Shown here piece by piece: positions 43,462-44,604 of a stretch of 44,604 bases of DNA. Under the pieces are notes generated by a model that did no database searches, had not been told where the DNA came from, and saw nothing but the letters and a program-made list of their open reading frames with translations. Origin of the DNA: Methanomicrobiales archaeon HGW-Methanomicrobiales-6 (GTDB lineage: Archaea > Halobacteriota > Methanomicrobia > Methanomicrobiales > Methanoculleaceae); NCBI GenBank assembly GCA_002839575.1, contig PGYH01000014.1, positions 808-45,411 of the forward strand, read 5' to 3'. Both the position numbers and the translations under genes were made by a program. How positions within the stretch are numbered: the first letter of the stretch is position 1; the number at the start of each line of letters is the position of its first letter.

Positions 43462-43662
43462 CGCGCCGTCGCCGGCCGGTGAGCGCAGGGGACTTTTATC
43501 TCGTAGATTTTGCTGTTTTATTGAAAACCCCGCTGAATCTGGAGTTAACGGCATTGCGCGCATGGCAATATCCTTGCGCTTCCGGTGCCTATTGTCGCTT
43601 GATGGATGAAAATTCGCAGCATTTTCCTGGTGGAATGCTGTTTTTTGTATGGAAGTGAGGTA
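43462..43662. other. Gene-free spacer between scpA and the rRNA promoters
   Basis: No convincing gene is seen. The base composition becomes AT-rich after 43495, including CTTTTATCT near 43493 and a T run near 43641. The ORFs here lack coding character. The scpA transcript presumably ends here, though no clear terminator hairpin is visible. Confidence 0.4.
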
Positions 43663-43691
43663 AATGTATAAATACCCCTGGCGTCAACATG
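43663..43691 (+). promoter_or_regulatory. rRNA promoter P0 (outermost, weakest match)
   Basis: AATGTA, 17 bases, then AACATG. The TATA-like core is TGTATAAATA. It lies 146 bases upstream of P1 and has the same half-site spacing, but each half-site differs by one base from the consensus and no outer arms are seen. A hairpin TCCAAGC/GCTTGGA (43774-43792) follows before P1. Confidence 0.5.
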
Positions 43692-43801
43692 TAATAGTCA
43701 AGTTGGAAGCAAATTTCGTGCACAATCTCGCATTCCGATGCGGGATGGCCGACATTTCCAACGAATATGGGGGTCCAAGCCCTGTGCTTGGATCCGACGA
43801 T

Positions 43802-43846
43802 GCAGGGAAATGTTTATATGACATTGATGACAACATTGTAAGGCTG
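43802..43846 (+). promoter_or_regulatory. rRNA promoter P1
   Basis: AATGTT (43809-43814), 17 bases, AACATT (43832-43837), with TATA box TTTATATG at 43813-43820. The upstream arm GCAGGGAA resembles that of P5. A hairpin GACCCGGG/CCCGGGTC (43918-43939) follows before P2. Confidence 0.65.
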
Positions 43847-43943
43847 TGTTGTCAGGGCGCCAGGCCGTGCAGCCCGGAACGGGTGGTCTGGTCTTGCGCC
43901 CCTTCAACCGTTGTGAGGACCCGGGTATTGGCCCGGGTCTGAT

Positions 43944-43992
43944 GCGGGTGACAATGTTTATATGTCTGGAAGTTCAACATATATTCTCACGC
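43944..43992 (+). promoter_or_regulatory. rRNA promoter P2
   Basis: AATGTT (43953-43958), 17 bases, AACATA (43976-43981), with TTTATATG as TATA box. Partial outer arms GCGGGTGA and CTCACGC flank it. Only a weak hairpin (around 44054-44074) precedes P3. Confidence 0.65.
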
Positions 43993-44075
43993 GATGTATC
44001 TGTGCTCGTGTAATGCGGGCGTTCTGATACGATCGGGCCGGGGATGTATGATGGATTCCCTGCCTGGAACCTGGA

Positions 44076-44124
44076 GCGGGAACACAATGTTTATATGTGA
44101 TGAATCACAAACATTAATTCCCGC
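44076..44124 (+). promoter_or_regulatory. rRNA promoter P3
   Basis: The most symmetrical unit: outer arms GCGGGAA/TTCCCGC, middle arms AATGTT (44086-44091)/AACATT (44110-44115), and inner arms TGTGA/TCACA around TGAA. The TATA box TTTATATG (44090-44097) lies asymmetrically inside. Transcription would start near the TAATTCCCG at the right arm. A perfect ten-pair hairpin CCGGAAATTC/GAATTTCCGG follows (44181-44205). Confidence 0.7.
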
Positions 44125-44217
44125 ACGGGTGAAACGGGGTGGCCAGAACTCGATGTTCTGACCGGGCGCTGTGTTCTGGGCCGGAAATTCCGAGTGAATT
44201 TCCGGAACGGGCCTGAA

Positions 44218-44266
44218 GCGGGAACATAATGTTTATATGTGGTGAATCACAAACATTAGTTCCTGC
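44218..44266 (+). promoter_or_regulatory. rRNA promoter P4
   Basis: Nearly the same as P3: outer arms GCGGGAAC/GTTCCTGC, AATGTT (44228-44233), 18 bases, AACATT (44252-44257), with TATA box TTTATATG. A hairpin TTCAAGG/CCTTGAA (44328-44347) follows. Confidence 0.7.
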
Positions 44267-44353
44267 GCAGGTGGAGTGGTCCGGTCTGATTCGGGCCAAG
44301 TTTCCCTGTATTCAAAGGATATGAGGGTTCAAGGTTTTCGCCTTGAATCTGAT

Positions 44354-44401
44354 GCAGGAAACAAATGTTTAAATAGTTAGGAAATAAACATTGTTTTCCT
44401 G
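44354..44401 (+). promoter_or_regulatory. rRNA promoter P5 (closest to 16S)
   Basis: Outer arms GCAGGAAAC/GTTTTCCTG, AATGTT (44364-44369), 17 bases, AACATT (44387-44392), with TATA core TTTAAATA instead of TTTATATG. Transcription would start near 44398, about 125 bases before the 16S 5' end. Confidence 0.65.
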
Positions 44402-44408
44402 TTGATGG

Positions 44409-44444
44409 AGAATCAACGTGACCGCCATTGTGCGGGTTGATTCT
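44409..44444 (+). other. Pre-16S leader hairpin
   Basis: AGAATCAAC (44409-44417) and GTTGATTCT (44436-44444) form a perfect nine-pair stem in the transcribed leader downstream of P5. It may be a processing or antitermination element of the rRNA leader. The processing stem around 16S cannot be judged because its 3' half is outside the window. Confidence 0.45.
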
Positions 44445-44523: not shown

Positions 44524-44604
44524 ACTCTGGTTGATCCTGCCAGAGGTCACTGCTATCGGGGTTCGATTAAGCCATGCGAGTCGAGAGGGTTCGGCCCTCG
44601 GCGT
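44524..44604 (+). rRNA. 16S ribosomal RNA, 5' end (partial)
   Basis: The sequence has the universal archaeal opening CTCTGGTTGATCCTGCCAGAGG, in which CTCTGG pairs with CCAGAG. It then continues with the familiar TCACTGCTATCGGGG and TTAAGCCATGCGAGTCGA. Only about 80 bases are inside the window. The exact 5' end is judged from the usual position, a few bases before the helix. The leader with six promoters lies directly upstream. Confidence 0.96.

Follow-up and report, generated by a model that had tools for sequence, protein, structure and literature searches.

The three putative rRNA promoters nearest the 16S rRNA gene (P4, P5 and P6) in a Methanoculleus genome bear a further inverted repeat, spanning about -40 to +5, whose two arms appear to have changed in step during evolution. 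The repeat was found in P4 to P6 only, at rrn leaders and within this one genus; its arms co-vary and it has no RNA-strand bias. We suggest, with a probability of roughly 0.4, that this dyad is a DNA-level cis control site, either an operator for a dimer or an extruding hairpin, that would compete with TBP/TFB. A functional dyad at the DNA level is thus the favored reading, with template-switch mutation as its main rival.

A tandem array of putative rRNA promoters

The window, which is the whole 44,604-nt stretch of DNA analyzed here, is part of a Methanoculleus genome, and its last 81 bases are the start of an archaeal 16S rRNA gene. The gene preceding 16S looks like scpA, with smc before it. 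A first-pass annotation had described six tandem units upstream of 16S, each built on an AATGTT/AACATT dyad in which no half-site has more than one mismatch, and all six were recovered as described. The unit starts (those of P1 to P3 and of the P4 to P6 cores in Table 1) follow each other at 146, 144, 133, 142, and 136 bases. A hairpin and T run form the upstream edge of the array, and the T run recurs at this place in relatives. The dyad with a 17-base spacer occurred four times in the window against 0.45 expected, and the array was the sole site of the strict motif AATGTTTA-N14-17-AACATT in the genome assembly. Judged by sequence, tandem arrays are also present in relatives, mostly with three to six units per Methanoculleus rrn leader. 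The six units are probably archaeal (TBP/TFB) rRNA promoters feeding one long structured leader, with initiation presumably taking place at each of them.

Table 1. Features at the 3′ end of the window.
Feature	Position	Strand	Description
Terminator-like hairpin, then T run	43616..43641	+	Between scpA-like gene and array; consensus match only
P1	43663..43691	+	BRE/TATA AATGTATAAATA and -10 element CAACATG; no dyad seen beyond promoter consensus
Leader RNA hairpin chain	43702..44352	+	Covarying hairpins in the spacers between promoters
Leader hairpin starts	~-827, -755, -701, -668, -609, -388, -348, -203		Relative to 16S motif at 44529
P2	43809..43837	+	BRE/TATA and CAACATT
P3	43953..43981	+	BRE/TATA and CAACATA; right arm not conserved in genus
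P4 nested dyad	44076..44124	+	Outer arms 44076-44082 / 44118-44124 (GCGGGAA/TTCCCGC)
P4 core	44086-44091 / 44110-44115	+	AATGTT / AACATT; left core arm overlapped by TATA box
P4 inner stem	44096-44100 / 44105-44109	+
P5 nested dyad	44218..44266	+	Outer arms 44218-44225 / 44259-44266 (GCGGGAAC/GTTCCTGC)
P5 core	44228-44233 / 44252-44257	+	AATGTT / AACATT
P6 dyad	44355..44401	+	Outer arms 44355-44361 / 44395-44401 (CAGGAAA/TTTCCTG); no inner stem
P6 core	44364-44369 / 44387-44392	+	AATGTT / AACATT
Leader hairpin AGAATCAAC/GTTGATTCT	44409..44444	+	Just upstream of 16S; RNA strand folds better
Archaeal 16S rRNA 5′ end	44524..44604	+	RF01959 match; start ~44524

An archaeal core promoter consists of a BRE AA at -34/-33, a TATA box at -26/27, a PPE near -10, and an INR (PMC8553660). 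The rRNA units have AA (BRE) just before TTTATAT (TATA box) and CAACATT as an element near -10, and this right element stands at the distance found in tRNA promoters. When the tRNA upstream regions of this genome and one relative were aligned on their start-proximal element, that element read CAAYATTRTAGG, with the TATA box beginning 18 bases earlier and adenines before it; its spacing to TATA was identical in the rRNA units and the tRNA promoters. Since four of six positions pair automatically between AAnnTT and AAYRTT, much of the symmetry between AATGTT and AACATT can arise without any function of the dyad, and only the two central positions of the core are free to vary independently of the promoter consensus.

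Distribution of the inverted repeat

Folding of the six units as single-stranded DNA (+ strand, dinucleotide shuffles) gave z-scores of -0.13, -0.87, -2.00, -4.55, -5.05, and -4.78 for P1 through P6. Over all units, the mean hairpin shuffle z was -0.4 for P1, -1.2 for P2, -0.2 for P3, -4.1 for P4/P5 (50 units), and -3.2 for P6 (24 units); tRNA upstream regions averaged -0.2. When both strands were folded with RNA parameters, each strand of P4-P6 exceeded chance. A chance match as the source of the dyad is ruled out by these z-scores and by the motif counts in the window.

A dyad exceeding what a TATA box needs had been claimed for all six units. This is supported for P4-P6, where it was genus-wide, co-varied, had no RNA-strand bias and stood in strong excess over the shuffled background, and is not supported for P1-P3, where no such strong excess was present; a dyad common to all six is ruled out by these three. 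In the genus alignment, the first core pair of P1 was A.G in 17 of 19 species, and the last core base of P2 drifted between A and T. The left arm of P3 was almost always AATGTT and its right arm varied widely: P3 has kept its TATA box and, in many species, lost the right-hand AACATT, the outcome that the first-pass annotation had itself named as refuting its claim. BRE, TATA and the -10 element appear to account for the symmetry of P1-P3, with nothing more seen. Outer arms, previously assigned to P3-P5, are present in P4 and P5, absent from P3, and present in P6 as well. Many P4/P5 units have an inner stem in addition to outer arms (GCGGGAA/TTCCCGC and variants), with inner-stem pairs lost in many P5 units. 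The first core pair of P6 is lost in most species and P5 is partly broken in some (genomes G011 and G034). In nearly every leader of the genus, also in the shorter secondary operons, the last two units are P5-like and then P6-like.

The signal appeared specific to both locus and genus. With the YR positions of the motif left free, these were complementary in 65 of 70 Methanoculleus matches, nearly all at rrn leaders, and in 10 of 30 matches from other genera, eight of the ten being the self-complementary TA/TA; outside Methanoculleus, pairing of the motif does not exceed chance. Fifty leaders of other Methanomicrobiales yielded 16 candidate promoters with a mean z of -0.5, a weak test of absence. 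The first-pass annotation had proposed looking for the dyad at rRNA and other promoters of related genomes. Of the Methanoculleus rrn leaders examined, nearly all had dyads of the P4-P6 type; tRNA promoters had none in this register (2.19 of 6 pairs; cross-pairing gave 2.50), SRP RNA promoters had none by eye, and RNase P promoters did not keep theirs: what looked like a paired change in G008 and G012 is not kept in G026 or G025. These three promoter types rule out a general promoter dyad. Non-rrn matches to the motif (G006/G016, G033, G035), two of which were inspected, gave no consistent picture of gene context or of pairing. The non-rrn motif AATGTTTATATTTAATGGTACCAGAAATATT is common to two Methanoculleus genomes (L160, L185), where it has no clear neighboring gene. 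At the RNase P RNA promoter (L204, L223), the tail of the TATA box pairs with the -10 element (ATATT/AATAT), and one paired change, ATACT/AGTAT, was seen.

Could the core promoter consensus alone produce the dyad? In that case, BRE AA, TATA and the -10 AACATT would be complementary by composition, in units that share ancestry. The same start-proximal element at the same TATA spacing in tRNA promoters and the automatic pairing of AA with TT are consistent with this, and it explains P1-P3. However, tRNA promoters have no dyad in this register and RNase P promoters lose theirs, and P4-P6 fold far beyond shuffles with a free YR pair that covaries; for P4-P6 the explanation is already contradicted, and as an account of the dyad we consider it very unlikely. 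The right half might instead be a second, inverted TBP/TFB site, with pre-initiation complexes in both orientations and divergent or self-competing promoters as the result. Read on the other strand, it does resemble a BRE followed by a partial TATA box (fully TATA-like in P6), and the P6 motif matches both strands in its own genome, the reverse strand reading GGAAAACAATGTTTATTT. The reverse TATA is nevertheless TTTGT in P4/P5 and varies among species in P6, and a second site seems equally improbable.

Changes in the two arms and strand preference

Among 50 P4/P5-type units, the pair at core position 3 was T-A in 37 and C-G in 13, with neither a mismatch nor a U.G intermediate. Pairing was found in 85.9% of cells (82.1% with shuffled partners) and double-sided changes in 48 cells (20.2 with shuffled partners), and none of 500 shuffles reached the observed value of either, a test that related sequences can exceed without any structure. 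Sliding the partner lowered pairing to 37-47%. When all column pairs of the P4/P5 class were put through an unbiased covariation filter (at least 80% pairing and three double changes), core position 3 was the only pair to pass, and it lies on the dyad. In P5 of 20 species, the best tree from spacer sequences placed seven changes on each side, always together; with just four independent pairs on branches that are well supported, the sign test lacks power (p = 0.125).

Genome G002 carries a different paired change in P5, AACATT/AATGTT. In G008, G015, and G002 the flanks and inner sequence are of the P5 type, which indicates that the arm changes are paired substitutions and not copies of a whole P4 unit. 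Copying of P5 from P4 by gene conversion may have occurred in the genome of the window and in G025, and perhaps P5 was also copied from P4 in G029. At two loci (L013, L019), P4 and P5 are very alike within a genome and different between genomes, pointing to conversion or duplication between tandem units. The half-site bases within one genome are TG in P4, CG in P5 of many species, and TG in P6; half-sites match within a unit and differ between units of the same genome, and no P4/P5 unit has mixed half-sites. Pairing was imperfect in the inner and outer arms, where pair 27-36 was C.A in 5 of 20 P5 units and pair 7-51 had many mismatches.

Arms that change together might also reflect mutational self-correction, in which template switching during replication or repair copies changes from one arm to the other and yields symmetry without function. 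Such a process acts on pairing, is strand-neutral and produces concerted changes without intermediates; it needs long arms, so it would affect P4-P6 only, and the region is highly transcribed DNA. Homogenization of inverted-repeat arms is reported from E. coli (PMC7202029) and from yeast, where highly transcribed DNA is among the cases (PMC8604942, PMC3820800). However, template switching does not by itself explain why mismatches persist in the inner and outer arms while the core pair is always matched, and the dyad is kept across the whole genus and in secondary rrn operons. We give this explanation a minor, if real, chance.

The leader itself is highly structured. Its hairpins begin right after P1 and number about nine between P1 and 16S, and no Rfam family other than 16S reached the gathering score in it. 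G.T oppositions outnumbered A.C by 170 to 61 over all helices found and by 63 to 15 between units, counts in which the rows are related and a regional base skew favoring G affects the spacer G.T figure; many G.T and few A.C in the spacers are a mark of selection on transcript structure. The right arm of P2 also pairs downstream within an RNA hairpin (GACAACA/TGTTGTC). Near the expected P2 transcript start (~43836-43893) lies a very conserved block (GTAAGGCTGTGTTGTCAGGGC...CGTGCAGCC...GGGTGGTCTGGTC) with two alternative pairings, which is present in Methanoculleus leaders and absent from the other-genus loci fetched.

P4, P5, and P6 had no + strand folding preference (p = 0.93, 0.34, and 0.65, respectively), whereas eight of nine other leader hairpins tested folded better as + strand RNA. 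Favored pairing of the transcribed strand, as expected of a structured RNA leader, was thus found in the spacer hairpins and not in P4-P6. The strand evidence is not unanimous: in the P4/P5 arms, G.T and A.C were about even (11:13) when counted on a Watson-Crick-only fold, and fixed-column G.T:A.C leaned toward RNA at ~42:16 summed, partly a register artifact. Given the lack of strand preference, the P4-P6 dyads seem to behave as DNA features and are probably not a leader-RNA effect. If they were, transcripts from upstream promoters would carry P4-P6 in their leader and RNA folding would maintain the pairing. This would agree with the chain of covarying hairpins between P1 and 16S, with its excess of G.T over A.C, and with P1, which is outside the transcript and has no dyad. 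Yet P2 and P3 are also transcribed and have no such dyad, and the covarying pair of P4/P5 lacks the U.G intermediate; together with the missing + strand advantage, this makes an RNA origin unlikely.

Proposed mechanism and comparison with known systems

Returning to the favored DNA-level site, the BRE/TATA half and the -10/start half of P4-P6 would form a long inverted repeat kept as DNA. For these promoters we infer regulator binding or hairpin extrusion, with a regulatory effect. A dimeric regulator could bind the two matching half-sites (GCRGGAA-N2-3-AAYRTTT), or the strong negative supercoiling that rRNA-transcribing polymerases leave behind them could extrude the repeat as a hairpin; in both cases TBP/TFB and RNA polymerase would be kept off and initiation at P4-P6 lowered. 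An operator would account for the symmetry and for its position across BRE, TATA and the start site. Against a simple operator, a tolerant dimer should accept mixed half-sites, of which P4/P5 units have none; it also has no known regulator, and the few non-rrn motif copies are without consistent gene context. Extrusion would account for strict pairing with free sequence and for the location nearest 16S, since negative supercoiling behind polymerases is strongest near a heavily transcribed gene, but the 4-base bulge and the mismatches in the arms would make it physically costly. A pairing-based structure, or template-switch mutation, would explain the step-wise paired changes more readily than would a homodimer operator with tolerant binding.

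It is rather doubtful, if conceivable, that the DNA structure of the core promoters acts as a switch for rRNA synthesis in Methanoculleus, the P4-P6 palindrome hiding TATA when extruded or bound; archaeal rRNA transcription would then be under a pairing-dependent control that has no earlier description. Control of rRNA output in archaea is poorly known, and a palindrome that coincides exactly with BRE, TATA and the start region, occurs only at rrn operons of one methanogen genus and is maintained through paired changes provides a concrete candidate control site. If the symmetry is mutational, it would be a clean natural case of inverted-repeat homogenization inside a strong promoter. In the open literature, searched with a coverage that is incomplete and lacks most subscription journals, neither a dyad spanning archaeal rRNA promoters nor any study of the rRNA promoters of Methanoculleus came to light.

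Operators of archaeal repressors (TrmB, Lrp, and GntR/YtrA types) overlap BRE/TATA or the start site, and like them the P4-P6 dyad is an inverted repeat over the core promoter. It differs in being longer, in having half-sites that vary between units and in its confinement to rrn, and it is a candidate site only. The early promoters of phage N4 reportedly form hairpins extruded from supercoiled DNA, and P4-P6 would likewise be promoters built around a predicted DNA hairpin; the N4 stem is said to be short and the polymerase that of the phage, in contrast to the long, bulged stem containing the TATA box in P4-P6.

The template-switch quasipalindromes (PMC8604942, PMC3820800) are likewise inverted repeats with imperfect arms that change together; unlike these, P4-P6 keep only some pairs matched and overlie a conserved promoter. 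All six units fit the archaeal core promoter layout (PMC8553660), with the right arm at the PPE position, and P4-P6 add complementarity of BRE/TATA to PPE/INR as well as outer arms. Tandem rRNA promoters are known from haloarchaea, with five in Halobacterium cutirubrum and three mapped transcription start sites in Haloferax volcanii (PMC4983044), and the present array is likewise archaeal, with several promoters following one another ahead of 16S. That report mentions no palindrome, whereas the three 16S-proximal Methanoculleus units have a conserved inverted repeat, recognized from sequence alone. What is known is thus the tandem arrangement of archaeal rRNA promoters, and what appears to be new is the dyad on the proximal ones, a sound sequence signature for which we propose a mechanism.
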